This document shows positions 1,006-41,498 of a stretch of 52,702 bases of DNA, piece after piece (position 1 is the stretch's first letter; each line of letters opens with the position of its first letter). This DNA comes from Anaerolineales bacterium (lineage in GTDB: Bacteria; Chloroflexota; Anaerolineae; Anaerolineales; E44-bin32). A program made the translations under genes and the position numbers. The DNA is taken from positions 1 to 52,702 of the forward strand of contig JARRPX010000025.1 in NCBI GenBank assembly GCA_037382465.1, given 5' to 3'. The notes beneath the pieces are model-generated. The model did no database searches and was not told where the DNA came from. It saw nothing but the letters and a program-made list of their open reading frames with translations.

Positions 1006-3909
1006 CTACGTACTCACGGCCTGGGATTGATGCACCAGATTCCGAATGATACGCAGCACCTCATCCTCCTGATAGGGTTTGACGAGGTATTCCGCTGCAC
1101 CGATCTCCAGCGCTTTGCTCCGATGCTTACCCCCTGCGCGTGAAGTCAAAACGACGAGCGGTATGTTTTTGTAATTCTCGTGCGCTTTCAAAGTGGACAT
1201 CAGTTCAAAGCCGTCCATGCGCGGCATTTCGATATCCACAAGGATCAAGTCCGGGAGTTGGGAGGCTTGCTGCAGAATCTCCAGCGCTTCGATGCCGTCT
1301 TTCGCAGCAAGCGGCTGCCAACCGGCATGCGTTACAAGTTTGGAGACGACGCGGCGAACGCTCAACGAATCGTCGACGATCATGACGATCAATGACCCTT
1401 CATCCTCCACGGCGGTCGCCCGGTCTCTTGCCCGGCCCTGAACTTCCGCTTGCGGGGTTCCTGTGATCAGATCGGCCGGATTCAGAATGAGAACCACGCT
1501 TCCATCCCCCATCAGCGTAGCCCCGGTGACGCCGTGGACCCTGCGCAGATGAGTGCCGAGAGTCTTGATCACGATCTCGCGTCCCGTCAGGAGCTGATCT
1601 ACTACCAATCCGATTTCTTGATCTCCAACTTTGAGGATCAAGAGCGGCATGTGCTCAATGATATCGCTGGCGGATTGACCAAGCCCGAGCGCCTCGCCCA
1701 GATGGCGCAGCGGAACGACACGATCTCCCAATCGGATCCCGGGCTTTTTACCTGCGGTTTCGATCCGCTCCTCTTCCAGTCGCAGGATTTGCGATACCGC
1801 ACTCAGGGGGATGGCAAAGGTCTCCTCATTCACCTTAACGAGGATGGCCCGCGTGACCGCCAACGTCATCGGCAGGCGAATGGTATAGAGCGTATATTCG
1901 CCGGGCGCCGAATCGATCGCCAGCGTACCTTTCAGGTTCTCGACGTTGGTACACACGACATCCAGCCCGACCCCGCGGCCAGACACCTCACTGACTTCAT
2001 CGGCAGTGCTGAATCCCGGCATGAAAACAAACGTGTAGATCTCTGCATCGGAGAGGTTTTGTACTTCGGTATCCGTAACGTATCCCTCTCGAACGGCGAC
2101 GGAACGGATTGCCTGGAGATCCAGTCCAGCTCCATCATCCCGCACCTGTATGACGACCTGGTTGCCCTCGTTATAGGCGCGCAAATCGATGCGGCCACGT
2201 TCCGGTTTACCCTTCGACTTGCGAACTTCCGGCGTCTCGATGCCGTGATCCACGGCGTTGCGCAGCAGGTGCAGCAAGGGGTCGACGATCGCATCCAGGA
2301 CCGTCGTGTCCATCTCGATCTCCTCGCCTTCGATGATCAAATCCACCAGCTTTTCCTGTTCGCGTGAAAGTACGCGGACGGTTCGATAGAAACGTGTCGC
2401 AAGTGTAGCCAGGGGCACCATGCGCGTGCGCATCAATTCGTCCTGAATTTGAGTCGAAAGCCGGCGATGACGGGTGAGGATGCCGTCGAACTCCGCAATC
2501 AAGTTGAAGAGTTCGGTTCCCATCGTGCGGATGTCACTCGAAGTCTCCGTCAACTCTCGAGACAAAAGATGAAACTCGGTATAGCGGTCGAATTGCAGCT
2601 CATCGAAGTCTCCCGCGTCCACCATTCCCGTTTCGTTGGCTGCGTTCCGATCTCTCGTTCCGCCAAGCATGCTGATCCGTCCGCCGAGTGCACGCACCTC
2701 ATAATTGGTCTCGATGGTCGACGTCAAACGGCGCAGGCGCTCGCTGCTCAGCCGCAATTCATCCACTTCACGAGTGAAGTCTTTCATGCGCAGCTCGAAG
2801 GCAGAGCGGCTGATGACCAATTCGCTCACCAATTTGACAAGCTCATCCAGCCGTTCCAGAGGTACGCGCACGATCTTACTCGGCTTACGCGATGCCCGTG
2901 TCATCGCAGGAAAAGCGCCGACCGATTTTTCGGTGAGCGTCGGCAAAGTCTCCAGATCCAGAATCCCGCCTTCGCCGAATAATTCGATTTGGGGAGAAAG
3001 CGGTTCCTCGATATCATCTCCGAGGAGGTCTGTATAGCGGCCGTACAAATCATGCAGGGTATTCTGCATCGCAGACGCTTCGACATCCCCCGAAACCAAA
3101 TCCTCCAGGGCGTCTGCAGAATCGAACATCAGATCCATGGATTGTGTGTCAATGGGCATGCTTGCTTCCGAAAAACGATCCAGCACATCTTCCATTCTGT
3201 GGGTGAGCTGCGCCACGGCCAATAAGCCGACGGACCCCGCTGCGCCCTTGAGAGTATGCACACTGCGGCGAATGGCTTGCAAAGATTCTACGTCCGACGG
3301 TTCTTTGACAATCTTCACCAACAGCGAGCCGACATTGCGCATGTGCTCTTCAGACTCCACGCGGAAGACGTTCAAAAGTTCGGGAGAGACATCCTCATGA
3401 CGCTGCGCGTCATCCGGTGTGGAAACGACGGGTTCGAATTCTACATCCAGAGTGCTTTCTACATTTTTAGCGATTTTACGCAGCGCCTCTTCAATTGCAG
3501 TCTGGTCTTCCGCCTTCGGCAGTCGCTGCATGCGGCGATAAACGATCGTGGCATCCTCGATCAACCGCCGCTCATCGAGCTCGCCGCTGACAATACCGCC
3601 CAGGAATGTTTCGATCTGAGTGACCAGTTTATGCAGCCGTCCGAATGCCTGTTTGCCCATCTTGCGTTTGCCCGCGACGAAATCTTCGAGGACTTCCTCC
3701 AGATAGGAAGCAATGAGGCTCAATCCCGGCAGCTCGATCATCGAAGCAGTACCCTTGATGGTGTGCGAATAACGGAATGCCTCTTTGATCGCGGTCGACT
3801 GCTGCGGATCTGCCCGGAAAGCTTCGAGCCTCTCCAGGATGATGGGCAGGTAACCTCGAGCTTCGTCGAGAAAACCAGCGAGCACATCCTCGTCCGTCTT
3901 CTTTACCAT
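1006..3909 (-). CDS. Hybrid CheA-type histidine kinase with two HPt domains and a C-terminal receiver (ChpA/PixL-like)
   Basis: Central kinase of a chemosensory array, taking phosphate from ATP to its own HPt histidines and then to receivers. In the 967-aa protein: HPt 1 (YSHTIKGTASM, His about 49), HPt 2 (RSVHTLKGAAGS, His about 218), P3 dimerisation and ATPase region with N box LLRNAVDHGIE, DDGAGLD and GRGVGLDVV, a CheW-like P5 region, and a receiver with VDD and phospho-acceptor VDIEMPRMDG (Asp about 892) and conserved Lys in YLVKPY. I chose the ATG at 3909, which has GGAG upstream, over an in-frame GTG 25 codons earlier that lacks one. Multiple HPts plus a receiver point to the type-IV-pilus (Pil-Chp, Pix) class. 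It is the last gene of the cluster; no CheR or CheB is seen. Confidence 0.92.
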   Translation of the reverse strand: MVKKTDEDVLAGFLDEARGYLPIILERLEAFRADPQQSTAIKEAFRYSHTIKGTASMIELPGLSLIASYLEEVLEDFVAGKRKMGKQAFGRLHKLVTQIETFLGGIVSGELDERRLIEDATIVYRRMQRLPKAEDQTAIEEALRKIAKNVESTLDVEFEPVVSTPDDAQRHEDVSPELLNVFRVESEEHMRNVGSLLVKIVKEPSDVESLQAIRRSVHTLKGAAGSVGLLAVAQLTHRMEDVLDRFSEASMPIDTQSMDLMFDSADALEDLVSGDVEASAMQNTLHDLYGRYTDLLGDDIEEPLSPQIELFGEGGILDLETLPTLTEKSVGAFPAMTRASRKPSKIVRVPLERLDELVKLVSELVISRSAFELRMKDFTREVDELRLSSERLRRLTSTIETNYEVRALGGRISMLGGTRDRNAANETGMVDAGDFDELQFDRYTEFHLLSRELTETSSDIRTMGTELFNLIAEFDGILTRHRRLSTQIQDELMRTRMVPLATLATRFYRTVRVLSREQEKLVDLIIEGEEIEMDTTVLDAIVDPLLHLLRNAVDHGIETPEVRKSKGKPERGRIDLRAYNEGNQVVIQVRDDGAGLDLQAIRSVAVREGYVTDTEVQNLSDAEIYTFVFMPGFSTADEVSEVSGRGVGLDVVCTNVENLKGTLAIDSAPGEYTLYTIRLPMTLAVTRAILVKVNEETFAIPLSAVSQILRLEEERIETAGKKPGIRLGDRVVPLRHLGEALGLGQSASDIIEHMPLLILKVGDQEIGLVVDQLLTGREIVIKTLGTHLRRVHGVTGATLMGDGSVVLILNPADLITGTPQAEVQGRARDRATAVEDEGSLIVMIVDDSLSVRRVVSKLVTHAGWQPLAAKDGIEALEILQQASQLPDLILVDIEMPRMDGFELMSTLKAHENYKNIPLVVLTSRAGGKHRSKALEIGAAEYLVKPYQEDEVLRIIRNLVHQSQAVST

Positions 3910-3992
3910 TGGGTCTTCTCCAAACTCGTGTCTACAACCCCGAACCGACCAACGGGTCACCCCGTATCGATCGTCGTTCGCCACTTCGACAG

Positions 3993-6311
3993 CTAGGCCA
4001 TCGCATGCATACCGTCGCTGGGTAATTTGAAGGCGCTGACCGATACGCGCAGTTCGTCGGCCATTCGAGCCAGCGAGTTGATCGAAACAGCGGTGTCTTT
4101 CGTTCCTTCGGCGGTCTGCTGCGTGATTTCTGCGATCTCACTCATCGCCTTTGCCACATTTTCCGATCCGCGGGCTTGCTGCTGAGCCGCCAATGAAATG
4201 GATTGACTCAATTCCGCCAGGCGAACCGAAACGGCCTCGATCTCGTTCAGGGCGTTGCCCGCTTCCTCCGCCAGCTTTGTTCCCGAAACCACCTCGTTGG
4301 TGGTAGCTTCCATGGCCGCAACGGCCTCGTTCGTCTCAGTCTGGATGGTGCGGATCAACGTTTCGATCTGCTGCGTAGCCTGCAGCGAACGCTCGGCCAG
4401 ACGTTCGACCTCCTCGGCAACGACGGCAAAACCTTGCCCGGCCTCACCCGCCATTGCAGCCTGGATCGATGCGTTGAGGGACAGGATGCTGGTTCGATCG
4501 GCAATGTCGCTGATCAATTCCACGATCTCGCCAATCTCCTGGGAACTTTCACCCAGCCGCTTGATCCGTTTGGCGGTCTCCTGCACTTGATCGCGAATGC
4601 GATTCATACCTTGCATGGTATTCTGTACGGCCAACGTCCCCTGTTTGGCGTTGACCAGGGACTGCTCACCCACCGACGCCGACATTGTTGCGCTCTCCGA
4701 AACCTGAGCGATCGACGTCGCCATCTCCTCGATCGCACCGGAGGTCTCAGCAATCTGCAGGGCTTGCGATTCACTGCCCCGGGATAACTGCTCGGTTCGT
4801 GCCTGGATCTCGTTCGCCGAAGCGCTCACCTTTTGTGTGGCTTGCTGTACGCCGGTGATAATCTCGCGCAATTGGCCGATCATCAGGTTGAACGAGTCGG
4901 CGATGGCGCCGGTCATGTCTGCCGTCACTTCCGCCTCGACGGTTAGATCGCCATCCGCGACACCGCTGACCTCGCGCAGCAGCTTCTGGATCGAAGCCTG
5001 CATCGCGTCCCGCTCCTCACGCGTCTGGATCAGTCCCAGCGTATTGTCGAGCATGGCGTTCAAGGTTTCGCTCGTCTCACCAAGCTCATCGTGGGACGTC
5101 ACCTCGACTCGAGCGTCAAAATTCCCCATACCGATCTCGGAACAAGTCTGCGAGATGGCGTCGATCGAGCGCAGAATATCCTGGACGACGACGAAGCGCA
5201 GCAGCACCGCCGCAGCCAACGCACCAAAGCCGATGAACAAGATCGCCCTTCTACCAGAAGCCTGCACTGCATTTACAGCAGCGATCGAAGCATCGACTTC
5301 GCCCAACCGTTCGTTGACTTGAACATCAAGGAGATCTCCCAGGACATCCGCATCGGCGTACATCTCCTGCTTCAATCCATCCAGCTCAGTTTGCTTTGCC
5401 ACATAAGAATCAACTTCCTGGAGATATCCCTGGGTTAAATCGAGTATGTTCGCTGCACGCGCGGCTACATCTTTCGCCATCACGACCGTATCATCGCCCA
5501 TTTCAACCGAACGCGATTCGAGTTCTGCGGTATTCGCTTGGATCTGTTCTCGATATAGATCGACGTTTTCAGTGAGCGCGGCGAGGTCCCCCGTTGCCGC
5601 CGCCTGATCCACCTCCCGGATCATGTTGCCCAGTGTTGAATCCGTTTCAAGCAGAACAACCCAAAACGGCACGACATCTTGGGTAAGGAAATTGAATGTG
5701 GGATTATCCGGACTGCCAAGAGAGATCGAATTCGCGACACTGGCTTGTGTTTCGGCGTACTTATCCGCGTTAACCTCGATTTGCACTTCAAGGATTCCGC
5801 TGAGTTCGACGGCCTCCTGGTACATGGCAGTCCCCAGGCTGTTGAGATCAGATTGCCTTCGCTGGATATCTTGGCCCGTCCCCATACCGCGTTGAACCAG
5901 GACGAGAATGGAATCGGATTGTTCCTTGATCTGATTCGCGGCTTCAGATGACCCAGCACTCCCTTGAACTTCTTCCACGATGTACTCATCAACGGATTGC
6001 TGTATCGATAAGACATAGTTCAAAACATCATTGAGGTTATCTTCCCCACCCGATGCCAAATATCCTTCCATCTCCTTGAAAAGTGAACTGTAAGCCGCCT
6101 CAAGCTCCAGCAAGGCACTCGCTCCTGGAACGAGTGCCTGTTCTAGCTGCGCAGCTTCATTGCCAGCTTTTGTGATCGAGCCGGCCGAATTGTAACCCAG
6201 GAAGGCTACGAAAACGATGATGATCAGAAAGCCCACCGTCATTTTCGTTCTGAGTTTCACATTGCGAAGTGGATTAAAACCAACACCTCGATCACGCAAC
6301 CTTTTCAACAT
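3993..6311 (-). CDS. Methyl-accepting chemotaxis protein, PilJ-like
   Basis: Membrane chemoreceptor that feeds the CheA-like kinase next to it. The 772-aa protein has a short cytoplasmic N-terminus, TM1 at about 25-45, a roughly 310-residue extracytoplasmic helical sensor region, TM2 at about 355-375 (FIGFGALAAAVLLRFVVV), a HAMP domain, and a long signalling coiled coil. The tip reads LNASIQAAMAGEAGQGFAV, close to the PilJ-type tip (IQASMAGEAGRGFAV) rather than the usual LNAAIEAARAGE, which supports a pilus-type array. Start: AAAGGAG sits 6 nt before the ATG at 6311; an in-frame GTG 8 codons upstream would lie on the far side of that site. Its stop is about 80 bp before the kinase start. Confidence 0.92.
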   Translation of the reverse strand: MLKRLRDRGVGFNPLRNVKLRTKMTVGFLIIIVFVAFLGYNSAGSITKAGNEAAQLEQALVPGASALLELEAAYSSLFKEMEGYLASGGEDNLNDVLNYVLSIQQSVDEYIVEEVQGSAGSSEAANQIKEQSDSILVLVQRGMGTGQDIQRRQSDLNSLGTAMYQEAVELSGILEVQIEVNADKYAETQASVANSISLGSPDNPTFNFLTQDVVPFWVVLLETDSTLGNMIREVDQAAATGDLAALTENVDLYREQIQANTAELESRSVEMGDDTVVMAKDVAARAANILDLTQGYLQEVDSYVAKQTELDGLKQEMYADADVLGDLLDVQVNERLGEVDASIAAVNAVQASGRRAILFIGFGALAAAVLLRFVVVQDILRSIDAISQTCSEIGMGNFDARVEVTSHDELGETSETLNAMLDNTLGLIQTREERDAMQASIQKLLREVSGVADGDLTVEAEVTADMTGAIADSFNLMIGQLREIITGVQQATQKVSASANEIQARTEQLSRGSESQALQIAETSGAIEEMATSIAQVSESATMSASVGEQSLVNAKQGTLAVQNTMQGMNRIRDQVQETAKRIKRLGESSQEIGEIVELISDIADRTSILSLNASIQAAMAGEAGQGFAVVAEEVERLAERSLQATQQIETLIRTIQTETNEAVAAMEATTNEVVSGTKLAEEAGNALNEIEAVSVRLAELSQSISLAAQQQARGSENVAKAMSEIAEITQQTAEGTKDTAVSINSLARMADELRVSVSAFKLPSDGMHAMA

Positions 6312-6399
6312 CTCGAACTCCTTTCCCAAAAACACGTCCCCTGGGGAATATATTTTGAGTCATGATTTCTTCCCACCGGAGATATCCTTGAATACACCT

Positions 6400-7542
6400 C
6401 TATCTAATCTGCATTCTCTCCGATGAAAGCACCCGATCGAAATCCAACACCATGAACTCTTGTCCTTCGATTTCACATACGCCGTCGACAAATTCTTCGA
6501 TGAATTCCGTGACCGCGGTCGTCGGCTGCCGAATTTGATCCAGGTTCAAATATCGAATCCCACGCACCTGATCGACGAGCACACAGGTAGAGATCTCTCC
6601 ATCGCTCGATCGCGCGACCAACATTCTTTTATCCTGCCCCGGATCGGCATCCGGCAAGCCCATGAAGATGCGTAAATCGATTACCGAGACGATGTCCCCG
6701 CGCAAGTTGGCAACCCCCAGAACCCATTCCGGCACGTTGGGCACCGGCGTGGCATTCAATGGCTCACCAATCTCGACTACGTTATCGATGGACACCGCAT
6801 ATTCATACTCGCCGAGGGCGAACGTTACATGCTGCTTCCCTTCGATCGCTTCGATCTGACGAACAAAAGGCAAGGCGGCCAACGTCGCCCGTTCCATGGC
6901 TTTCTCGTCGCCTTCATCGATGGACGCAATCAACGTCGCAAGCAGGGTCCGACCTTTCTCAGGATCGAAGAAAATCTCGTGGCTCGACCCGATCGCGATT
7001 CCTTCGTCCGGCAAATCTTGATCCGCGATCTGAGAATCGATTTCTGCTTTATTCAAACCGGTCGACGAAGGGGCTTTGGTTTTTCGTTCGGCTGCAGTTG
7101 ATCCTTCGAGCCGAGATTCCGGCTTCGCGGCGGCCGCGGGTTTCTCCTCCGACTTGGGCTTCGGCGTCGTCTTCTTCGCCGTCCGCTTGCGGGATGCGGT
7201 TTTCGGCTTCGCGGCGGCCGCGGGTTTCTCCTCCGACTTGGGCTTCGGCGTCGTCTTCTTCGCCGTCCGCTTGCGGGATGCGGTTTTTGGCTTCGCAGCA
7301 GCCGCGGGTTTCTCCTCCGACTTGGGCTTCGGCGTCGTCTTCTTCGCCGTCCGTTTGCGGGATGCGGTTTTCGATTTCGCGACGGCCGCGGGTTCCTTCT
7401 CCGACTTGGGTCTCGCCGGCGCGCGTTTACGGAGTTCAGCCTCCGGCTTTACCGGGGTTTCTTCTGGCTTCCCCGTGTCGTCTGCCTGTGCGAACGGATC
7501 ATCAAAGAGTGGTTTGGTGGACTTGTCTTTATCCTTCTGCAT
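6400..7542 (-). CDS. cheW: CheW-type coupling protein with repeat-rich basic N-terminal tail
   Basis: Scaffold linking receptor and kinase. The C-terminal about 150 of 380 residues form a CheW domain (FALGEYEYAVSIDNVVEIGE, then VLGVANLRGDIVSVIDLR). The N-terminal half is low complexity: three near-identical 28-residue units rich in Lys, Ala, Thr and Pro (KTASRKRTAKKTTPKPKSEE...) plus a degenerate fourth, encoded by 84-bp tandem repeats. CheW proteins are normally about 160 aa. The basic tail might bind nucleoid DNA, acidic lipids or the ParA partner, but this is a guess. It overlaps the end of the parA-like gene by 14 bp, so translation is probably coupled. Confidence 0.9.
   Translation of the reverse strand: MQKDKDKSTKPLFDDPFAQADDTGKPEETPVKPEAELRKRAPARPKSEKEPAAVAKSKTASRKRTAKKTTPKPKSEEKPAAAAKPKTASRKRTAKKTTPKPKSEEKPAAAAKPKTASRKRTAKKTTPKPKSEEKPAAAAKPESRLEGSTAAERKTKAPSSTGLNKAEIDSQIADQDLPDEGIAIGSSHEIFFDPEKGRTLLATLIASIDEGDEKAMERATLAALPFVRQIEAIEGKQHVTFALGEYEYAVSIDNVVEIGEPLNATPVPNVPEWVLGVANLRGDIVSVIDLRIFMGLPDADPGQDKRMLVARSSDGEISTCVLVDQVRGIRYLNLDQIRQPTTAVTEFIEEFVDGVCEIEGQEFMVLDFDRVLSSERMQIR
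7121..7420 (-). repeat. 84-bp tandem repeats inside the cheW-like gene
   Basis: Units begin at 7121, 7205 and 7289 (84 bp each, nearly identical), with a partial degenerate unit from 7373. Each codes 28 residues of Lys/Ala/Thr/Pro-rich sequence. The near identity at DNA level suggests recent slippage or unequal crossing over, so copy number may vary between strains. Confidence 0.92.
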
Positions 7543-8287
7543 CGCTCACGACCCTTTCCACCAAACGCGCATAATCCATCGCACCGGTGCTGTTGGGGGC
7601 GTATTCATAAATCGTCCGCTGCCGCCCTATTGCTTCGGATATTCGAACGTTGATTCGGATCGGTTCGGCGACTTTATCGGCGAAGTGCCGCTGGAGAATT
7701 TCCATAACCTCTCGATCTTTACGCAGCCAAGAATAATAAAACGTGGGCACGATCAGCATGAGTTCGCTGTCGTGATTCGAAACCTTACCAACCGTCATCA
7801 AAGTCTGAATGACCTGCCGCGTGCCGATCAACGCCAGATAATTCATCGCTACCGGTACGATGATCTTGCGCGCATAGAGCAAACCGTTCTCATTTACGAG
7901 GCTGGCGGAGGGTGAATGATCGAGAAGAATGTAATCATAGCCACGAACGTATCGCATCTTCTCGCGAAGCACCCATCTCGCTTTTTGGTCGTCCTTCATG
8001 CGCCATAACTCCCCCTCCGCCTTGAGCAGACTATCGTTACTGATGATCAGGTCGAGATTTTCTCTCGCTTTGACGATGCATGCTTTCGTTTCGGCCTTCC
8101 CGAGCAGCAAATCGGTCAGTGAATTCGGGTGCTGAACGCCGAAGCACGTCGCCAGGCTTCCTTGCGCATCCAGATCGATACATAACACTCGCTCGCCGCG
8201 GAGCGCAAGTCCGGCGGCTAAATTGACAACCGTGGTGGTTTTTCCCGTACCCCCTTTGAAGTTCAGTACACCGATGATCTCGGTCAT
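7529..8287 (-). CDS. ParA/Soj-family ATPase associated with the chemosensory cluster
   Basis: Deviant Walker A P-loop ATPase of the ParA/MinD group: KGGTGKTT near the N-terminus (about 11-18), Walker A' CIDLDAQGSLA, and LLDHSPS as the switch region. 252 aa, the usual length. RBS GGGAGG is just upstream of the ATG. It lies between a PilH-like receiver and cheW, overlapping cheW. ParA homologues in chemotaxis operons (ParC of Vibrio, PpfA of Rhodobacter) position signalling arrays in the cell, so this one most likely localises the array (inference from context). No parB-like gene is adjacent. Confidence 0.92.
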   Translation of the reverse strand: MTEIIGVLNFKGGTGKTTTVVNLAAGLALRGERVLCIDLDAQGSLATCFGVQHPNSLTDLLLGKAETKACIVKARENLDLIISNDSLLKAEGELWRMKDDQKARWVLREKMRYVRGYDYILLDHSPSASLVNENGLLYARKIIVPVAMNYLALIGTRQVIQTLMTVGKVSNHDSELMLIVPTFYYSWLRKDREVMEILQRHFADKVAEPIRINVRISEAIGRQRTIYEYAPNSTGAMDYARLVERVVSDAEG

Positions 8288-8334
8288 TCTTGCGCCTCCC
8301 GCAGCAGCATGTACGAAGTTGCGGAAATTACCGG

Positions 8335-8700
8335 CTACAGCAGCTTTTCGATGTTGGCTAGATACTGTTCGGTATCAAAGGGTTTGGTCATATATTCGTC
8401 AGCACCTTGCTCAAGGCCCCAAAAGCGATCGCTGTCCTGGGTCTTGCTGGTCAACATGATGATCCGGATGTCTTCTGTATCCGGGGAAGTTTTAAGTTGC
8501 CGGCAAACCTGGAAGCCATTCTTCTTGGGCAGGATGATATCCAGCACAATCAAATCGGGACGCTCCCGCATGGCAACGTCCAGGGCTTCTTCTCCATCCA
8601 CGGCAGTGAATACCCGATACCCCTTGTCCTTCAAGGGGGCCGTCATCAATCGCAAATCGGTGGGGCTGTCATCCACTACCAGGATTTTTTCGTTTGCCAT
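8335..8700 (-). CDS. Single-domain response regulator (PilH/PixH-like)
   Basis: A 121-aa stand-alone receiver with no output domain. Visible: acidic pair VVDDSP, phospho-acceptor Asp in VLDIILPKKNG, Thr in IMLTSK, and Lys in YMTKPFD. AAGGAGG stands 5 nt before the ATG, a very strong site. Likely takes phosphate from the hybrid CheA in the same operon, as PilG/PilH or PixH do for pilus motility. Confidence 0.93.
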   Translation of the reverse strand: MANEKILVVDDSPTDLRLMTAPLKDKGYRVFTAVDGEEALDVAMRERPDLIVLDIILPKKNGFQVCRQLKTSPDTEDIRIIMLTSKTQDSDRFWGLEQGADEYMTKPFDTEQYLANIEKLL

Positions 8701-8807
8701 CTAGACCTCCTTATGATTTTCCTGAAAGTATTATTGTCACGGCTCGCTATTCCGCTGTTATCCACCAAGGCGGTGCAGGATCTGCTGCATGCATAAAGTC
8801 CTTTCCA

Positions 8808-9656
8808 TCAAGATCCAGAACCCCGCCGGAGAAACCTGGATGGGTACCCTTCGATAGCGGACCTCAATTCATCCAGGAAAGCATCGCACGTATCGGACCA
8901 TCTATTCGCAGCAGACACGGATCGGAAACGCTTCGTGAGTAAAGCGAAGAACCGATCGAGAATCTCCACGATGCCCAATCCGATCCGGGGATATGCAGCC
9001 TGGAGATCACCGCCGCCCGCCTGCCATTTCTGATCGTTTCCCGGCATTTCCACGGACATCAAGTCATTCTTTACCTTCAAGAGATCCATTCCGCTGTCTG
9101 CCGTGTATGCAGCGGACAAAGCTTCATCCAGGACATTGCCAGGGAGATGTTTCCCGGCCATCTCGACCACGTTCTTCATGATTCTTGAGAAAATGCGGAA
9201 GGCCTCCGAAATCTGATCCTGTCCGGCGGACTCGGTCAAGGAGGCACGCGAATGTTCGAGTTTCGACAACAGGTAAATCAAGTCGAGTTCCAGGGCATTA
9301 TCATGCTCAATTTCACTCTGGGTGAGATTCTCGTCTCGTTTGAGGATGGCCGCCCCTTCGACTTGCATCTCAGCGACACGCCGCCGGCCCTCTGCCAGGA
9401 TTTCTTCCCATGGCGTAGTTATCGTGCGGCGAGGCAGCAACACGTCACTCGACAGACGGAATTTACCCTCGTTCCAGGTCAGGATTTCGAGCACTGCCTC
9501 TTCGCCGTGAATTGGACCGGCCGCGGCGTCGATGATTTCGCCTTGGTTGAAAAAGATGACCCCGTCCTCCTCATCCTCCTTCATCAGGATTAATGCAGCA
9601 CTCTGTTTTTCCAGACAAATCAGCTGTACGAGATTTACCAGACTCATCGTTTTCAA
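8808..9656 (-). CDS. PATAN/DUF4388 domain protein
   Basis: 282 aa. Residues 1-90 match the PATAN (DUF4388) fold: MSLVNLVQLICLEKQSAALI, then FFNQGEIIDAAAG and GEEAVLEILTWNEGKF. PATAN domains occur in PixG/PatA-like regulators of cyanobacterial phototaxis and in gliding and pilus regulators, usually as protein interaction modules. The remaining about 190 residues are helical and not recognised. Unlike PixG there is no receiver in this polypeptide; the receivers are in the flanking genes. Start is uncertain: a TTG at 9656, or an ATG three codons later with GGCGGA upstream. The gene has an obvious place in the chemosensory operon. Confidence 0.8.
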   Translation of the reverse strand: MKTMSLVNLVQLICLEKQSAALILMKEDEEDGVIFFNQGEIIDAAAGPIHGEEAVLEILTWNEGKFRLSSDVLLPRRTITTPWEEILAEGRRRVAEMQVEGAAILKRDENLTQSEIEHDNALELDLIYLLSKLEHSRASLTESAGQDQISEAFRIFSRIMKNVVEMAGKHLPGNVLDEALSAAYTADSGMDLLKVKNDLMSVEMPGNDQKWQAGGGDLQAAYPRIGLGIVEILDRFFALLTKRFRSVSAANRWSDTCDAFLDELRSAIEGYPSRFLRRGSGS

Positions 9657-9704
9657 TCCGCCGTATACCCTCGCTCAGCAAGAGACATTGGGGGCATCGA
9701 CCCT

Positions 9705-10727
9705 TCAGGCATGATTACCAATTGCGTACTCTCTGACGAATTCAACCAACTCGTCCGGTTCGAACGGTTTGGTTATATAGCCGCACGAACCAACTTTCCG
9801 TCCCATTTCCCTATCGGCAACATCATCCTTTCCCGATAACATGATCACCGGGATATTTGCGGTTTCCTGGGTTGTCTTGATACTCTTGCAAAGCTGATAT
9901 CCATTCATCCGCGGCATGGTAATGTCGAGCAGAACCAGGTCGGGCAGCTCGGCGATGATTTTTGCCAAGCCTTCCTGCCCGTCGGCAGCCGTAATGACCC
10001 GGTAGCCTTCACGCTCCAACGTGATCTTGACCAGCCGGCAGATCGTCGGGCTGTCATCAACGACAAGCACGGTCGAACCAACTTCTTCGACCTCATGCTT
10101 CGCTGATGCGATTCGCGTGAGTTCTTCAAGCCGAGAAATCAAGAAGCTGTCATCCGGACGCAAGCGTAACGCCTGCCGCAAGCGAACCGTCCCACCATCG
10201 ATCTGACCAAGATTTAAGTAAGCCAGCGCCAGGTGGTAATGTGTGTCGAACGAAGCCTCATCCTCCTCGCCGTTCCGAAGACGTTCAATGGCATCGAGGA
10301 TAATCGCTTGCTTCGCCCCTTTGTTGCGCATGAGTGCATCCAGGTCATTGAACGTGAGTACAGCTCCGCATGAACGGCACACTGTAAGCTGCTCTGTAAA
10401 TTGAGTCTGGCAAAGCGGGCAACACCAGCCAGCACTTCTCTCCGATCCTTCAGTATCTTGCGCCTCCGCCAGCTTTCCCTGTGCCCACTTCAATCCGGAA
10501 ATAGCATGCTGGTTGGCAGGATTGATCGCCAGCACGCGCTTCAGGTATTCCACCGCTTCTTGTGGGCTTTCTGAAACGCCGGCCAGCCACAACCAACCAA
10601 GCTCGCCATCAGGGTTGACCTTCGTGGCCTTTTGAAGGAGTTGATACGCAAGCGATTTATTGCCATCTTTTGCGGCGGCAATCCCTTCACTAAGCAGCAT
10701 GCGGAACATATCTTCAGACAAATCCAC
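9705..10727 (-). CDS. TPR-zinc ribbon-receiver fusion protein
   Basis: 340 aa in three parts: TPR-like helices (about 10-85, with WLWLAGVSESPQEAVEYLKR), a four-Cys zinc ribbon (CCPLCQ...CRSCG, about 103-123) followed by another TPR-like pair (about 155-190), and a C-terminal receiver from about 220 (VLVVDDSP, phospho-acceptor LLDITMPRMNG, Lys in YITKPFE). GTG start with GAGGT upstream. An adaptor-type response regulator probably acting through the TPR surface, comparable in role to PilG. First large gene of the chemosensory run; a 51-aa gene lies directly upstream. Confidence 0.85.
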   Translation of the reverse strand: MDLSEDMFRMLLSEGIAAAKDGNKSLAYQLLQKATKVNPDGELGWLWLAGVSESPQEAVEYLKRVLAINPANQHAISGLKWAQGKLAEAQDTEGSERSAGWCCPLCQTQFTEQLTVCRSCGAVLTFNDLDALMRNKGAKQAIILDAIERLRNGEEDEASFDTHYHLALAYLNLGQIDGGTVRLRQALRLRPDDSFLISRLEELTRIASAKHEVEEVGSTVLVVDDSPTICRLVKITLEREGYRVITAADGQEGLAKIIAELPDLVLLDITMPRMNGYQLCKSIKTTQETANIPVIMLSGKDDVADREMGRKVGSCGYITKPFEPDELVEFVREYAIGNHA

Positions 10728-34025: not shown

Positions 34026-34400
34026 TCAACTCTCCGAGGCAAGCCAATTGCGCACCTTCGTAACCAGTTCTTCGTGATTGATCGTTTTTCCCAGGAATTC
34101 GTTCGCGCCGGCCTCGAGCGCCTTCTGACGAATTTCCTCTCCCACCGCCGCAGAATAAAGCAGGATGGGTACTTCATGCATTTCTGCATCCTGACGTAAT
34201 TGCTTGCACACTTCCAAGCCGTCGATCCCCGGCATCATCACATCCACAAGGAGTACATCCGGCTTCGTCTCTTTGGCGAGGCGGACCGCATCCTTGCCAT
34301 TCGCAGCCGTTACGACATCAAATCCGCTGCGTTTGAAAATATAGTCCAGGAAAAAGAGCAGCTCTGTGGTATCGTCGACAATCAGTATCTTATCACTCAT
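34026..34400 (-). CDS. Single-domain response regulator at the end of the exosortase operon
   Basis: A 124-aa receiver: VDDTTE, phospho-acceptor in LVDVMMPGIDG, Ser in LLYSAAV, Lys in FLGKTI. No output domain. Its ATG overlaps the stop of the upstream membrane protein gene by 8 bp, so it is translationally coupled to an operon for protein sorting. No histidine kinase is adjacent; it might take signals from the kinase of the chemosensory cluster or from one elsewhere. A receiver in this place is unusual. Confidence 0.9.
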   Translation of the reverse strand: MSDKILIVDDTTELLFFLDYIFKRSGFDVVTAANGKDAVRLAKETKPDVLLVDVMMPGIDGLEVCKQLRQDAEMHEVPILLYSAAVGEEIRQKALEAGANEFLGKTINHEELVTKVRNWLASES

Positions 34401-37275
34401 CTACTTCCTCCCGAGCGGAGGGAAACTCCAACCGCATGGCATCGCCTGAATCTCCAAAGAAATCCCCCTCTTTAAATCCCCATTTTTCGTAAACGGTTTT
34501 TGGATCGTAATCGTGTTCGATAAACCATTCCGCTAATTTCTGTCTTCGTTCCTCACCGGACGGTTCTTCTCCGGGTTGAAAACCTTCATCGTCCATTCGC
34601 AACCCACAAATCGAGCAGTCGACAGTCTGGAAGGGATAGGTGATCGGCGTTGGAGGGCCCAGCCGGGCAAAAAGGAAACCGCAAGTCGCACAAGGCGCAT
34701 ACTTCCCCTTTTCATCATTCAACGAAGAAACGGGTTCTCCAACGACAGGTACAAAAGTTCGACGTTCAACAATCGTAGCTGCAATCAAACCGCCGACACC
34801 CAACAGGCTGACGATCCACCCCAGAATCGGCCAGATCGTACCGAAAGGCCGGTAACGAATATGGACTTCATGTTCGCCTTCGGGAAGGGAAATTTGGATG
34901 AGATTTTCATAGACTTCCATTGCCGTCTCTTCACCATCGACGCTTGCCCGCCAGCGAGGAGAATATGTATAGGAAAGCAAGGCATTTTCGAGCGGCTCAT
35001 CCAGATCCGTGACGAAGGTAAGACTCCTGCCGCCGGCTTCGAAATTCGAATAGGGTACGGAGTATAAACGAAGCGCCTGGTCGATGTTCAATCCTTCGAG
35101 GGTTAAATCACGCAGCGCCGTCACAGTCTCGAAGTTACCTTGAAGTTGTGCATAATAAAGGAGATTCAAACCGATAAACCAGGCGCGGCCATCGCCGACG
35201 TCCTTGTAACCCAGGATAGGGTACCACTCGTCGCCAAATTTTACCTCGCCATAGACGGAATCGAGTCCCTGATAGATTGCACCGGACCACCCCTGCGGAG
35301 CCACGACGTCCAGTGGTAGTGATTCCGGCAACCCGGCGAGTTCGTCTGTCCAGCGTATGCGTATCGTATCCGGAAAAGAGAGCCGCAGCACGTTCACACC
35401 CAGCAAGTCCAGGGTGCGGCCAAAGACTTCCTCCATGCCGCTCAACTCCAATATCAGACGGCCTCCGTTCTGAAGATACTCGATCAGGAGAGATTCATCT
35501 TCTCCAATTGCGTTCGTGGAACGCTCGAAACGATACAATCCAATCGCCGCATACGCTTGTAGTTCAGCAGGCGTGAGCCGGGAAAGATTCACTTCCCGAG
35601 CCTCTTCTGCGAACGGATAGGTCATGAGAAATGGAGGCAGTCGATCTCCAAGCAGGAGCATACGTTGCTCGGGAATCCGCTGGAGCATGCCCGCAGGTTG
35701 TGGATTGACCCAGATCTCATAGATTCCTCTCGTCTGCCGCAGTTCGAAGCCAATCTGCGCTAGAGCGGATTGTGCGAACGTAGCAGCCTGCCAATCGCCA
35801 CCTACTACGGCGACACCGACGTTCCACAACGAGAGAATGTGCTGCAGGTATTCCGGACTCCATTCCGTCGCACTGAGTACACGCCGCAGCGCCCTGTGAT
35901 GCGGCGTGTTTTCCAACGCCCAACCGTTGATCAAACGCCCGTCTTGGCCGGCGAAATAAACCTCCAGGGAGTCCGGCTCGGGGTAGGTCAGCAAAGCAAT
36001 TCGGCAATCGCTGCTGCCGTCAGGACAATCGATGTCCGAGAGAAGCGCCTGCTGGTAAGGATAAGGGTGATTACCGATCAATCCCCAACCCGGGAAGAGG
36101 TCAATGAAGACCGCTCCAACGACGACGATTACACGCGCCCAACGGGCACGATTGCCGATCGGTAAAAGGCCGGAAGCGCCGATGGCGAGAGCGAAGGTGG
36201 CGAAGTTGAGAAATCGCTCCGGCAGTAATTGTGAACTCAGCGGCAGCAAATTGAACAGCACGCCCCTCGGGCCAAACGACAGCCAGATCGAGATGATTCC
36301 CGCGAAAACCCATGCACTGCGATTCTTATCCGGTCTGGCCGTGGCAGCCAGCAGCGCCATGATGATCGTGCCAAAGCCGAAAAGGATTTGCCCGCCAGTG
36401 ATGTCAGCCGCCGGCAGGATGGATTCGATCGACGTGGAAAACAATGCCACTTTTTCCTGGGGTAGATATGGAACCTGCGGGATCTCCCCACGGCTGTAGG
36501 CCGGGAGGATCCATAACGCTGTGAGCAGCGCGCCAGCGACCACCCCTGCAGTCCACCATGCCCCCCAGTTCAACGGTATATCCGCGTCGATGAAGAGGCG
36601 TACCACGATGTAAAACACGAAACCAATGGCGAAAATGAGCGCCTGCTGCGGATGAGCCAGGATCGCCCAAGCCCAACACAGGCTCAACACAATCACAGTC
36701 GGCATCTTCGGACGCGAACGATCCAACAACCGCTGTGAAAACAGCGCAATGGGAGGCAAAGCGAGCAGCGCCAGAATCCGCGGGTAGTTGCCCTCGAAGA
36801 ACAAGGTTCGCAGCTGGTACGGTGCCCACAGGGCCAGTATCGTTCCCAACGCGGCAGGCCAGGGGCTGCTCATGCGGAAAAACGAGACGTAGCAAAGCGC
36901 GGCAAAGACCAGAACCGCCAGCGAAGCGAACAGCTTATGGATCTGGCCGGGATCGCGGAACAGATAAGCAATGGGCGTCAGAATCAACGTCGTCAGTGGG
37001 GGATAAAAAGTGCGGAAAGCATCACCCATGTACCAGTTGGGCATCCAGCTTGTGGAAAAATACGCACCCGGCCCCTCTTCCCGAATTTGATCCGCGAGGT
37101 ATTCCGCCTTGGCGATGTGACCCCAGGCGTCGGTGCCGATCGGATATCCCTTCGACCAGACGCCACTCAACAATACGAACAGGGCCAGCGTGACGAGCAT
37201 CGCTGGCCCGAGGTGTTTTTTCGAGAGACGGTTCCAGTCTATTCTGCCCAGATGTCTACGAGCCCTCCCAACCAT
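34393..37275 (-). CDS. 6-pyruvoyl-tetrahydropterin synthase-related membrane protein with zinc ribbon tail
   Basis: About 960 aa. After a TM near the N-terminus comes GYPIGTDAWGHIAKAEYLAD and WMPNWYMGDAFRTFYPPLTT, the pattern of the PTPS-related membrane domain (PF10131), then about ten TM helices to about residue 400, a large extracytoplasmic region, a final TM (WPILGWIVSLLGVGGLIAAT), and a cytoplasmic end with two CxxC pairs (CATCGF...CSICGL). Proteins of this type accompany XrtG exosortases and their glycosyltransferase. The fold suggests a polyprenyl-sugar glycosyltransferase or polymer transporter (inference). The start is uncertain: 37275 limits overlap with the upstream gene; 37338 is an alternative. 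Confidence 0.8.
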   Translation of the reverse strand: MVGRARRHLGRIDWNRLSKKHLGPAMLVTLALFVLLSGVWSKGYPIGTDAWGHIAKAEYLADQIREEGPGAYFSTSWMPNWYMGDAFRTFYPPLTTLILTPIAYLFRDPGQIHKLFASLAVLVFAALCYVSFFRMSSPWPAALGTILALWAPYQLRTLFFEGNYPRILALLALPPIALFSQRLLDRSRPKMPTVIVLSLCWAWAILAHPQQALIFAIGFVFYIVVRLFIDADIPLNWGAWWTAGVVAGALLTALWILPAYSRGEIPQVPYLPQEKVALFSTSIESILPAADITGGQILFGFGTIIMALLAATARPDKNRSAWVFAGIISIWLSFGPRGVLFNLLPLSSQLLPERFLNFATFALAIGASGLLPIGNRARWARVIVVVGAVFIDLFPGWGLIGNHPYPYQQALLSDIDCPDGSSDCRIALLTYPEPDSLEVYFAGQDGRLINGWALENTPHHRALRRVLSATEWSPEYLQHILSLWNVGVAVVGGDWQAATFAQSALAQIGFELRQTRGIYEIWVNPQPAGMLQRIPEQRMLLLGDRLPPFLMTYPFAEEAREVNLSRLTPAELQAYAAIGLYRFERSTNAIGEDESLLIEYLQNGGRLILELSGMEEVFGRTLDLLGVNVLRLSFPDTIRIRWTDELAGLPESLPLDVVAPQGWSGAIYQGLDSVYGEVKFGDEWYPILGYKDVGDGRAWFIGLNLLYYAQLQGNFETVTALRDLTLEGLNIDQALRLYSVPYSNFEAGGRSLTFVTDLDEPLENALLSYTYSPRWRASVDGEETAMEVYENLIQISLPEGEHEVHIRYRPFGTIWPILGWIVSLLGVGGLIAATIVERRTFVPVVGEPVSSLNDEKGKYAPCATCGFLFARLGPPTPITYPFQTVDCSICGLRMDDEGFQPGEEPSGEERRQKLAEWFIEHDYDPKTVYEKWGFKEGDFFGDSGDAMRLEFPSAREEVDE

Positions 37276-38690
37276 GCCACGGACCGTTTCAGTCCCTGCA
37301 GCTGCAATTCTTCCAACCACTCCCCTCGGGTCGTCCATCTCGGCTCTTCGCTCAGTACCTTCAATATGCCACTCAAACGGAAAAAGTATACAACCGTCCG
37401 ATATACCGCCAACAGCGGTAAATACAACGCAGATTTTCTCAGCAGCCGACGTTCGCTGCGAGCGCAAACCGGCCATGCCACTGCCATCTGCACGGCATCG
37501 GTGAGCACGTACAGTGTATACATTAAAGCTGCTGCTTGCGCAATTACGCTCGTTTCATACCCGAAGAAGGGGAACAAGGGCAGCAGGAAAGCCCAGATCA
37601 AGCGCAGCAAGGCCAATGCATGATCGTTCTGCAGCCGACGAGGCATCGTCCAACTCCAAAAACGGCCTCGTTTTCCCAGCAAATCGGAATTGACTGCCAT
37701 GACCTCGATTTCCCCTCGCTGCCAACGCACGCGTTGGGAATACAAATCACGCCAGTTGGTCACAGGAGCCAGGTGGATACGAACCTGCGGTAGATAACCG
37801 ACGCGTTCCTGGGCGCGCTGCAGCGTCAGCGTGGCATCCGTGTCTTCCGAAACCGTGCGCCCGCGGTAGCCGTTCATGCGTTGGATGACTTCCCGGCGGA
37901 AGATTGCACAGGCCCCCGATAGCGTAAACAGCTCCTGGCGCACCGCCTCAGCGTGGCGGCCGATGCGAAACGCCTGGAGGTATTCGAAGAATTGTGCCGA
38001 AGCCAGGAATTTCTGGCTGAAGGTCAGTTCCTTCAGGATGGGCAAATCATCTTCATCCAGGCGGATGTAGCCCTTATCGTTCGCCTCGACGAGCAGGTTG
38101 GGGTCGATGATCAAGTGCGCCGTCGCCGCCTGTAAATGGGGATCGACCCTGAACGCAGCGACGGCCTGCTCGACGGCTTCCGGCTCGAGAACGACGTCCG
38201 AGTCTACGGCAAAGATCAATTCGCCTCGGCACTGTTTGATGCCCAAATTGACCGCCGTCGGTTTTCCCTTGTGCTCGCCCTGCACCAGCGTCATCACCCC
38301 GCCGAACTCACGCGCCGGGATGATGCGGTTGTGCAGGCGGATGTGCCCGTTCCAGTGCGCCGTGCCGTTGATGTGCCCGTTGACAACTTCCTCCGGGCGG
38401 TCCGTCGAACCGTCGTTTATCACGATGATCTCGATCAAATGATGCGGATACGTCTGCGCCTTGAGGCTGGTGATGCAGCGGTCGATGTTCAACTGCTCGT
38501 TGTAGGCCGGGATGATGACCGAGACCTTGGGTAGACTGCGCCGGGGCAGCGGCGGATACAGCTTCGCCATGCGGCGGTGACGCCAAACCAAAAAGGCGTC
38601 GTTGAGTGATTTGAAGACGTCGATGCAAAGTGGGATGAGTATCCACACACCCCAAAATATGAGGAAATGCTGCCAACCCATGGTCGTCAT
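37239..38690 (-). CDS. Family 2 glycosyltransferase, membrane-bound, XrtG-associated type
   Basis: 483 aa. N-terminal TM (FLIFWGVWILIPLCIDVF), cytoplasmic GT-A domain (VSVIIPAYNEQLNIDRC, VINDGSTD, VDSDVVLEP as the metal motif, VSEDTD, and QRVRWQRGE as the QxxRW acceptor/product motif), and C-terminal TM helices. This layout is that of processive synthases such as BcsA/NodC or of the glycosyltransferase that accompanies exosortase G (TIGR03111). GGAGAA precedes the ATG. It lies 18 bp after the exosortase stop and overlaps the PTPS-related gene. Confidence 0.9.
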   Translation of the reverse strand: MTTMGWQHFLIFWGVWILIPLCIDVFKSLNDAFLVWRHRRMAKLYPPLPRRSLPKVSVIIPAYNEQLNIDRCITSLKAQTYPHHLIEIIVINDGSTDRPEEVVNGHINGTAHWNGHIRLHNRIIPAREFGGVMTLVQGEHKGKPTAVNLGIKQCRGELIFAVDSDVVLEPEAVEQAVAAFRVDPHLQAATAHLIIDPNLLVEANDKGYIRLDEDDLPILKELTFSQKFLASAQFFEYLQAFRIGRHAEAVRQELFTLSGACAIFRREVIQRMNGYRGRTVSEDTDATLTLQRAQERVGYLPQVRIHLAPVTNWRDLYSQRVRWQRGEIEVMAVNSDLLGKRGRFWSWTMPRRLQNDHALALLRLIWAFLLPLFPFFGYETSVIAQAAALMYTLYVLTDAVQMAVAWPVCARSERRLLRKSALYLPLLAVYRTVVYFFRLSGILKVLSEEPRWTTRGEWLEELQLQGLKRSVAWLGGLVDIWAE

Positions 38691-38708
38691 GCTTTATTCT
38701 CCGGCCAA

Positions 38709-39311
38709 TTATTGAACCGCTCGGCCACTGACCTCCAAATCCCTGCGCACGAAGCGGATCGTCGGCAGGGTCAACATGCGCCAATATACGAATACGATTC
38801 CCACGAAAAACACCATTCGCCCCACCAGTGCGTGTGCCCAAGGTACAGCGGGTTTTCCCAACGCCGCAACCATGGCAATGATCACCGAAAGACGGATGAG
38901 ATTGATGATCACCGTCGCTGCCAGGCCTCCGATCAAACGCCGCAGCCGTTCGGCGGGCGGAAAACGCGGATAGAAAAGCAGCAATCCGGCAAAAACCGAA
39001 AGTTCGATCAACGTCGAGCATTCGATGCCGATCGCCAGGACGGACCAGCCGGTCGGATCGGGCACAACGAGCTCGGCGCCGTTCAACGTCGATAAACCCA
39101 ATCCGAACCACCCCCAAACGATCTCAAGCAGGCTCGCTTGCGCCGCACCCAGCGGCTCATTCCACCCGCCCAGCCATCCCGCCAGGATCAACAACGCAGC
39201 CAGGCCAAATGCGCCCCAAAGATATGCAGTGAGACTGTAGCGTCTGTGCCGCAGCGCAAGCAGGCCAATGATGTAAACAGCAAGCGCCAACGCCATGAGG
39301 GGGTAGTTCAT
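38709..39311 (-). CDS. xrtG: Exosortase family protein, XrtG-like
   Basis: Multi-pass membrane transpeptidase thought to cleave and attach proteins with PEP-CTERM-like tails. 200 aa, about six TM helices. The exosortase catalytic triad is in place: Cys98 in AIGIECSTL, Arg140 in INLIRLSVI, His160 in VPWAHALVGR. Short single-domain length and neighbours (glycosyltransferase, PTPS-related protein) place it in the XrtG group (TIGR03110). Its ATG overlaps the stop of the candidate substrate gene by 4 bp (ATGA), a translational coupling. XrtG enzymes are described mainly from Firmicutes, with targets poorly known. Confidence 0.85.
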   Translation of the reverse strand: MNYPLMALALAVYIIGLLALRHRRYSLTAYLWGAFGLAALLILAGWLGGWNEPLGAAQASLLEIVWGWFGLGLSTLNGAELVVPDPTGWSVLAIGIECSTLIELSVFAGLLLFYPRFPPAERLRRLIGGLAATVIINLIRLSVIIAMVAALGKPAVPWAHALVGRMVFFVGIVFVYWRMLTLPTIRFVRRDLEVSGRAVQ

Positions 39312-39811
39312 GCCGCCTCCAGGGCGAATTCATGCCTGCGGCGCCAGAGCCAAATGACGAGCAGCGCAACGGCGGCCAGACTGAAAAACCATCCCAACGA
39401 TGGTACGGAGTAGAAGGTCGTGGAAGCGCTGTCGATGTCGCAATTTTGCGAATTACCGGTGCTCCAGCACAAACGCACGGTGTACGTGCCGATGCTGGGG
39501 AAGGCTGCATTGGAGGTGGACCACGAATCGCTGTACGTGTCGCCGGCCTTCATGTTCGGCATGTTTGTCGTATGTGTGGCGACCACGGTGACGCCGTCCG
39601 GCGCGAAAATCTGGTAATACAAATTCGAGTTGGAGATTTTAACGTCCGCCCGCTCGCTACTGTGTACGTTTACGCTGCTGCCCTGGCTGGATGCGTCCGA
39701 AGCCGTGAGACCGGTGATGACACCCTTGCTGGTCTGGGCGAGCGCAGGTATGGCGAGAAGCATGAGGATCACAGTTGCGCTGAATCCCGCTCGAATCGAT
39801 CGTGATACCAT
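39308..39811 (-). CDS. Secreted protein with PEP-CTERM-like tail, candidate exosortase substrate
   Basis: 167 aa. Signal peptide (SATVILMLLAIPALA, cut expected after ALA), a 110-residue extracytoplasmic domain predicted as beta-rich (SSVNVHSSERADVKISNSNL, YYQIFAPDGVTVV, SIGTYTVRLCWS, with two Cys), then a tripartite end: VPSLGW, hydrophobic FFSLAAVALLVIWLW, basic RRRH. That end has the order of exosortase sorting signals. It is translationally coupled to the exosortase gene. GGTGG lies 5 nt before the ATG at 39811. The assignment as substrate is inference from tail and context. Confidence 0.8.
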   Translation of the reverse strand: MVSRSIRAGFSATVILMLLAIPALAQTSKGVITGLTASDASSQGSSVNVHSSERADVKISNSNLYYQIFAPDGVTVVATHTTNMPNMKAGDTYSDSWSTSNAAFPSIGTYTVRLCWSTGNSQNCDIDSASTTFYSVPSLGWFFSLAAVALLVIWLWRRRHEFALEAA

Positions 39812-40223: not shown

Positions 40224-41498
40224 CTACGGCAGGTCCCAATAACTCACGTTATAAACGTCCACTTCTACACCGGCCGTCATTGCGGAACTCACGAACACGC
40301 CGAAGCGTCCACTGGCGTACGCTGAATCAGACACCTGTGCGATCAAATGGCCATTGACGTAGAGTTTCAGTGTATCTCCCTCGGCCCACAAACCAATACG
40401 CTGCGTTTGATCGGATCCGTATGCGAGCTCCGCAGATACGGTCCAGTTGGCCAACTTCGTAAACTCCGAACCGTCCCATATTCGCAATGCGTAACGCCCG
40501 TCGCAGGAAACCCCGAACAGGTAACCGACGGCGCCGTCCTCCGTGAGTTTCGAACGTGCCATCAGACCATAAGCGTCCAGACCGCTGCAGGAACCGATTT
40601 TCGCTTCCATCTCCAGATAGAAATTGGAAATCGTGGGCGAAGTCAGCATCCAGCTGTTCCAATAATCGGGGTTGAGCGCGGTCATGATGAGTTCATCCTC
40701 CCCGATCTCAAAACGCGCATGCTCGTCTTCGTACAGCGGCCAATTGCTTCCGGAGCTGAAGTTATCCTGAAACACAGGCGCGCCCAGCCCCGCTCTCGGA
40801 TCTCCCGGCGGGAGCGTCGGCGTTGCCGTTCCGGCAAGTGTGGGCGTGATGGTTGCGCTCGGCTCCGCTTCCGAAACGGTTGCCGTCAACGTGGGTGTAG
40901 GCTGCGCTTCGTACAGGGGAATGTTTTGATAGTCCCATCCAAAAGACACTTCGGTGCTTGAATTGTCCTCGTCGATCGTGACGGTGAAGCTGATCATCTC
41001 GTCGCTTCCCCGGACCTCGGGTGCAGTCCAGCGTCCGGGAAGAAGCAGCGACGAATTGGCGGCGCTTACTGGATCGATGCTGACGCAGTACGTCCCCGGA
41101 TACAGTCCGGCGAAGAAGTAGAAACCGTCCGGCCCGGTCTGTATACTGCGATACCCAATGGACGGGCAAGTCCCCTCCCCCAACAGCACTTCGACGCCTT
41201 GGATGCCGATTTCATTCCCATCAACGGTTCCGTTGGCCATCAAGGCCGATCCTTCCGGTGCATCAACACAGCCTTCGGGAGAAATGAACGGCAACGGCTC
41301 CCCTTCGGCCGGGTTTGCACACAGGTCGTGCCACACCCGTCCGGCAATGGTGTTGCTGCCCGGCGTGATTTCAATGATGGTTGGAATCGCCGTGGGACCA
41401 AAGCTGATTGAATCGGTGAACGTACAGGCCAGCAGGGAAAGGCCCAGAACCAGCACTACAAGTGGAACGTATCTTCCTTCCCTCTTATTTCTATTCAT
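40224..41498 (-). CDS. Lipoprotein with SdrD-like beta domain and C-terminal jelly-roll domain
   Basis: 424 aa. Signal peptide PLVVLVLGLSLLAC with lipobox Cys25. Residues about 45-190 resemble an SdrD B-like or carboxypeptidase-regulatory domain (GRVWHDLCAN, GIQGVEVLLGEG, DGFYFFAGLYPGTYCVSID). A Thr/Pro linker (PTPTLTATVSEAEPSATITP) follows, then about 180 residues of concanavalin-like beta sandwich (FQDNFSSGSNWPLYEDEHAR, GRFGVFVSSAM). GAGGGA precedes the ATG. Expected to sit on the outer face of the membrane. Its codons 3-22 are inside one arm of the 60-bp inverted repeat. Confidence 0.88.
   Translation of the reverse strand: MNRNKREGRYVPLVVLVLGLSLLACTFTDSISFGPTAIPTIIEITPGSNTIAGRVWHDLCANPAEGEPLPFISPEGCVDAPEGSALMANGTVDGNEIGIQGVEVLLGEGTCPSIGYRSIQTGPDGFYFFAGLYPGTYCVSIDPVSAANSSLLLPGRWTAPEVRGSDEMISFTVTIDEDNSSTEVSFGWDYQNIPLYEAQPTPTLTATVSEAEPSATITPTLAGTATPTLPPGDPRAGLGAPVFQDNFSSGSNWPLYEDEHARFEIGEDELIMTALNPDYWNSWMLTSPTISNFYLEMEAKIGSCSGLDAYGLMARSKLTEDGAVGYLFGVSCDGRYALRIWDGSEFTKLANWTVSAELAYGSDQTQRIGLWAEGDTLKLYVNGHLIAQVSDSAYASGRFGVFVSSAMTAGVEVDVYNVSYWDLP

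Follow-up and report, generated by a model that had tools for sequence, protein, structure and literature searches.

A 52,702-nt stretch of contig JARRPX010000025.1 of an Anaerolineales bacterium (referred to below as the window) carries an exosortase gene that lies directly downstream of the gene for a secreted protein with a candidate C-terminal sorting tail, and that is followed by two genes coding for putative glycosyltransferases. These products probably form a one-enzyme, one-substrate C-terminal sorting module with two glycosyltransferases. The evidence for this reading comes from gene order, from the conservation of the tail motif and the catalytic triad, from the finding of one tail-bearing protein per genome, from predicted folds, and from independent gene fusions.

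Operon structure and conservation of gene order

Five open reading frames (ORFs) follow one another on the minus strand in the order substrate, exosortase, GT2 glycosyltransferase, PF10131 membrane protein and lone receiver (Table 1). The substrate stop codon and the exosortase start codon share 4 bp (GCATGAAC), and the receiver gene shares 8 bp with the stop of the membrane-protein gene. Promoter and terminator scans gave signals no better than those of shuffled sequence. The longest ORF for the substrate begins at a GTG at position 39829, but the alternative ATG at 39811, located behind AAAGGTGG, is the likelier start.

Related loci were collected by scanning genome contigs and by searching an Actinomycetota phylum sample. 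The order substrate/exosortase/GT2/membrane protein was found again in G298 (locus L038), G335 (L039), G346 (L040, on the same contig as L059) and L060, as well as in many Actinomycetota loci, among them ones from Coriobacteriia and Geothermocultor. In G298, G335 and G346, the GT2 enzyme, the exosortase and the membrane protein were 46–73% identical to those of the window. Across the two phyla the substrate gene lies directly upstream of the exosortase gene, usually with the 4-bp overlap, and the GT2 and GT-C (membrane-protein) genes come next wherever the contig allows. This recurrence indicates that the arrangement is not due to chance, and the operon is real. An initial annotation, made from the window's sequence, had proposed looking for co-occurrence of all five genes in related genomes; this was borne out for four of them, the receiver being the exception.

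The exosortase belongs to a putative sister branch of XrtG

The exosortase scored 41.8 bits against TIGR04178, the superfamily signature (cut-off 23), and was the only protein above this cut-off in the 3.7-Mb genome. A sequence search of solved structures found no relative of it. Cys98, Arg140 and His160 align with the exosortase active site, as the initial annotation had read them, and neither the Arg nor the His varies among 58 relatives. When 58 exosortases were placed in a tree, the window sequence fell in a branch of 16 rows (support 100/98) from Anaerolineae, Actinomycetota and one further metagenome-assembled genome (MAG), the remaining rows representing the XrtG side (Chloroflexota and Bacillota). 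All 16 sequences of the window branch keep the Cys, Arg and His. Syntrophomonas palmitatica and Anaerolinea thermolimosa are hosts of the XrtG branch that have been cultured; among the relatives collected, none turned up for the window branch. The tree therefore suggests that the window branch is a separate sister branch of XrtG, present in Anaerolineae and Actinomycetota.

XrtG, the name given in the initial annotation, is the nearest named family, yet by curated criteria the window system is not XrtG. The exosortase reached only 70.3 bits against TIGR03110 (cut-off 102.75), formally failing the very profile search that the annotation had proposed as a check; other exosortases of the window branch scored 71–78 bits. 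TIGR03111 was by far the top family for the GT2 enzyme (257 bits), yet this too fell below its cut-off (363.95). No match to TIGR03112 was obtained at E 10 or better across the whole genome (95% complete), and the window substrate had no match to Firmicu-CTERM (TIGR04145) at E 0.1, nor did those of L038, L060, L062 and L067 at E 0.05. Six of the 14 XrtG-branch substrates tested did match Firmicu-CTERM (best E 0.00027). The targets of XrtG, described in the initial annotation as poorly defined, thus include a named partner, and a transcriptome study of Lactiplantibacillus plantarum groups XrtG with the Firmicu-CTERM protein and two glycosyltransferases in a single system (PMC12854382); the pairing of one enzyme with one substrate is therefore not new for XrtG.

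The window module might nonetheless be a true but diverged XrtG/Firmicu-CTERM system with no separate function. The two share an exosortase beside one substrate encoded directly upstream, a GT2 enzyme of the same family and a PF10131 membrane protein; the best named families point to XrtG, several XrtG-branch Chloroflexota enzymes also fall below the TIGR03110 cut-off, and large Actinomycetota substrates retain the DGxFxDW start typical of XrtG substrates. However, all curated cut-offs were missed, TIGR03112 is absent from the genome, window-type substrates lack a Firmicu-CTERM match, and the enzymes form their own clade. Gene order also differs: the usual order in XrtG-side Chloroflexota is small 6-pyruvoyl-tetrahydropterin synthase (PTPS), PF10131 protein, substrate, exosortase and GT2, whereas the window module has no TIGR03112/PTPS domain and runs substrate/exosortase/GT2/GT-C. 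Its tail (F-Y-S-I/V-P-x-L-G-W) is different, and an immunoglobulin (Ig)-like ectodomain replaces the DGxFxDW domain shared by XrtG-side substrates. A diverged XrtG system is thus a rather unlikely explanation.

The substrate and its sorting tail

The C terminus of the substrate consists of SVPSLGW, a hydrophobic segment and RRRHEF. The initial annotation had noted a secreted protein with this type of tail overlapping the exosortase gene by 4 bp, and both ORFs and the overlap are present. An alignment of 15 window-branch tails shows no change at P, L or G and almost none at W; further Actinomycetota tails read IPTLGY, IPTLGI and IPALGW. Pairwise identity was 0.85 for PxLG, 0.43 for the Ig domain and 0.30 for the hydrophobic segment. 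PxLG is thus conserved far above the membrane segment, which fits a recognition motif better than a plain anchor. XrtG-side tails vary by branch (VQWSPANALGW, IQWSPIPIMP and CSGAPTMGW), and tail type appears to track enzyme branch.

When nine genomes were searched with a profile of the tail, each yielded one strong match (E <1e-16), every time the neighbour of the exosortase. The next-best matches had E values of 0.005 or worse, and most were internal to proteins or lay in proteins unlike secreted ones; a possible exception was found in G581 (L122), with a C-terminal ...TPAIG-hydrophobic-WRERK (E 0.005). The two other outcomes that the initial annotation had named as refuting its reading did not occur: homologues of the substrate keep the tail and, in these nine genomes, unrelated proteins do not share it. 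The annotation's proposal of one exosortase dedicated to one substrate, with glycosyltransferases coupled to the pair, is well supported.

The AlphaFold2 model of the substrate (mean predicted local distance difference test score 84) shows a helical signal peptide, an Ig-like sandwich of seven strands (residues 36–141, counted on the longest ORF) and a helix in the tail. The best fold matches of the Ig-like domain were β-sandwiches of carbohydrate-active enzymes (GH2) and the Wzt carbohydrate-binding domain. Since these are general β-sandwich matches, they were not used as evidence for sugar binding by the substrate. In Actinomycetota, large surface proteins (~850–930 aa) end with this Ig-like domain and tail, having begun with a DGxFxDW domain followed by Ig-like repeats; compared with them, the window substrate appears reduced.

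A predicted GT-C glycosyltransferase in place of a PTPS-related protein

The initial annotation had placed a GT2 enzyme and a PTPS-related membrane protein downstream of the exosortase. Both genes are present, the latter matching PF10131 at 173 bits, but a PTPS-like function is not supported: no PF01242 (PTPS) domain was matched in the window membrane protein, and its predicted fold is of the GT-C type. True PTPS domains adjoin, or are fused to, PF10131 only on the XrtG side (PF01242 in L050 and L075), and the 'PTPS-related' Pfam name of PF10131 probably reflects real PTPS-PF10131 fusions such as that in L075.

In a fold search with the model (predicted template modelling score 0.77), the archaeal oligosaccharyltransferase AglB came first (Z 20.1, root-mean-square deviation 4.0 over 458 residues), followed by yeast and human STT3, AftD, ArnT and PMT. 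Asp50 lies in the first outer loop, at the place of the GT-C acidic residue, and hardly varies among 20 sequences. The membrane protein is therefore predicted, from its modelled fold, to be a GT-C glycosyltransferase nearest to oligosaccharyltransferases, with a GATase1-like ectodomain (residues 535–736). Its likeness to AglB, STT3, PglB and the arabinosyltransferase AftD is one of predicted fold; identity is ~10%, and the GATase1-like domain is extra. The Actinomycetota counterpart matches PMT_2 and has the ectodomain in common (hhalign probability 97.7). The C-terminal segment of the GT-C protein (34393-34700) contains four cysteines (CATC...CSIC), zinc-ribbon-like, that are invariant in five Anaerolineae members.

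These matches bear on the main rival explanation, according to which the GT-C enzyme adds a glycan to the body of the substrate, and not to its C terminus, while the protein is being exported, leaving to the exosortase only the later cutting or anchoring (secrete, glycosylate, sort). The nearest solved folds being oligosaccharyltransferases and protein mannosyltransferases, the PMT_2 match in Actinomycetota, and the Ser plus Thr content of the substrates (17–24%) all speak for it. However, the window substrate contains no N-x-S/T sequon and close homologues only one or two, which makes classical N-glycosylation unlikely, though O-glycosylation may occur, and AftD, which extends a polysaccharide, matches the fold as well. 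This order of events is a real possibility, if not the one preferred here.

Serine exosortases and substrate-enzyme fusions

In 23 of the 58 sampled exosortases, all on the XrtG branch, a Ser occupies the position of the catalytic Cys (ESSG for ECSG), while the Arg and His are kept and the operon is intact. The tree requires at least three Cys/Ser changes. In addition, substrate and exosortase are fused in five loci (Table 1). In the four Bacillota fusions the motif runs straight into the first membrane helix; the fifth, from a Coriobacteriales member of the window branch, comes from a single MAG, and a frameshift error is possible. The fusions support the pairing of the neighbouring substrate with the enzyme.

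Both variants could also be taken to mean that the tail is a mere membrane anchor and the neighbouring protein a permanent, uncleaved partner in a membrane complex: the substrate domain is naturally fused to the exosortase, and serine enzymes occur in the neighbouring branch, whereas the matching Cys is critical in the archaeosortase ArtA (PMC9263693). Against this, the motif is far better conserved than the membrane segment, the Cys, Arg and His are retained throughout the window branch, and nearly all genomes encode the enzyme and the substrate as separate proteins. An anchor without cleavage is therefore improbable.

Proposed mechanism and comparison with known sorting systems

In the proposed sorting module, the substrate would be exported via its signal peptide and retained in the membrane by its hydrophobic and basic tail. 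The exosortase, through Cys98, Arg140 and His160, would then read P-x-L-G-W at the outer face, cut nearby and hand the new C terminus of the substrate to an acceptor. The GT2 enzyme (cytoplasmic-facing, with membrane helices) and the oligosaccharyltransferase-like GT-C protein would most likely build this acceptor, presumably a glycolipid or a glycan, or else glycosylate the substrate.

Several points weigh against this scheme. To our knowledge, no acceptor has been described for any exosortase of the window branch. Substrates could be glycosylated instead of being attached to a glycan; shared descent of a linked gene pair could partly explain the match between tail and enzyme; and, as the fusions show, the enzyme may not always have to let go of its substrate.

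Archaeosortase A, which acts on PGF-CTERM proteins, belongs to the same superfamily, and for it a tripartite tail, an active-site Cys and the lipid attachment of the cut substrate have been shown experimentally, together with a requirement for Cys173, Arg214 and Arg253 (PMC7157517, PMC9263693). The window system resembles it in the superfamily, in the predicted Cys catalysis and in the tripartite tail, but ArtA has several protein substrates and phospholipid-synthesis partners, whereas the window enzyme has one substrate and glycosyltransferase partners. The PEP-CTERM/exosortase systems of exopolysaccharide loci are similar in that an exosortase is tied to glycan genes; however, their enzymes have many substrates, and both motif and enzyme family are unlike those of the window.

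The logic of an exosortase system is itself known, but the branch, the motif, the reduced substrate and the phylum range are new with respect to NCBIfam release 20 and searchable papers. More tentatively, the window branch may represent a new exosortase family that reads a PxLG(W) signal of its own and joins one surface protein to a glycan or glycolipid, which the GT2 enzyme and the oligosaccharyltransferase-like GT-C enzyme encoded alongside would supply. One four-gene unit would then provide substrate, transpeptidase and acceptor synthesis, the serine enzymes and fusions of the XrtG branch being variants of the same chemistry. With a single substrate, a single enzyme and two glycosyltransferases, so compact a unit makes testable the largely open question of the acceptors of bacterial exosortase substrates. 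The serine enzymes and fusions offer natural variants with which to ask whether the exosortase fold needs a cysteine and whether substrate release belongs to the process.

Table 1. Features of the operon and of related loci (window positions unless a locus is named)
Feature	Position	Strand	Description and evidence
Substrate	39308-39811	minus	167 aa; signal peptide, Ig-like β-sandwich, tripartite C-terminal sorting tail; ORF, AlphaFold2 model, homologues with the same tail
Predicted signal peptide (MVSRSIRAGFSATVILMLLAIPALA)	39737-39811	minus	Read from sequence; predicted helix
Ig-like β-sandwich domain	39407-39724	minus	Two conserved cysteines; seven strands in model
Sorting-tail signature motif P-S-L-G-W	39389-39403	minus	P, L and G invariant in 15 tails
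Tail hydrophobic segment and basic RRRHEF end	39326-39388	minus	Read from sequence; alignment
Exosortase, putative sister branch of XrtG	38709-39311	minus	TIGR04178 and TIGR03110 scores, tree
Cys98 codon	39018-39020	minus	Predicted nucleophile (GIECST); alignment
Arg140 codon	38892-38894	minus	Invariant in alignment
His160 codon	38832-38834	minus	Invariant in alignment
Membrane GT2 glycosyltransferase	37239-38690	minus	Kin of XrtG-associated enzyme; TIGR03111 257 bits, PF00535
PF10131 membrane protein	34393 to ~37278 (start codon inferred)	minus	Predicted GT-C fold, GATase1-like ectodomain, C-terminal four-cysteine (zinc-ribbon-like) segment; PF10131 173 bits, model
Lone response-regulator receiver	34026-34400	minus	Accessory, outside conserved core; PF00072 104.5 bits
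Serine exosortases	L043, L046, L047, L048, L050, L071, L073, L074, L083, L084, L087, L092, L097, L108, L111 and others		XrtG branch
DGxFxDW substrate domain and serine exosortase in one open frame	L076:8341-9537, L086:8305-9588, L098:8146-9348, L099:8125-9327		One Bacillota clade, XrtG branch
PTLG-tailed substrate and Cys exosortase fusion	L078:5890-9372		1160 aa; window branch, Coriobacteriales; single MAG, possible frameshift error

The receiver and neighbouring genes

The initial annotation had included the lone receiver in the system, and a functional link between sorting and a phosphorelay could be imagined: the gene overlaps that of the membrane protein and its product has an intact phospho-acceptor motif. 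However, a receiver was present in only two of the four close loci, and a related counterpart in L038 only, where it is 307 aa long (with an extra C-terminal part) instead of 124 aa; it was absent from L039, L040 and the Actinomycetota loci. In three XrtG-side Chloroflexota loci (L054:10307-11194, L055:4039-4926 and L056:10481-11368), a response regulator-GGDEF protein unrelated to the window receiver is encoded by a gene that overlaps the end of the GT2 gene. These cases lend the link some support, and suggest that regulator links arose more than once, outside the core. Taken together, a functional role of the receiver in sorting is quite unlikely, and it is best seen as a lineage-specific local addition.

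Upstream of the operon, on the same strand, positions 40224-41498 code for a lipoprotein-like protein (with a lipoprotein signal) containing SdrD_B and lectin-like domains. No counterpart was seen at the related loci, and since it is not conserved in relatives it was set aside as a member of the operon. Elsewhere in the window, positions 1006-10727 contain a chemosensory cluster that includes a CheA with Hpt, CheW and receiver domains, a methyl-accepting chemotaxis protein, a CheW, a ParA-like ATPase, a DUF4388 protein and a TPR-receiver protein.

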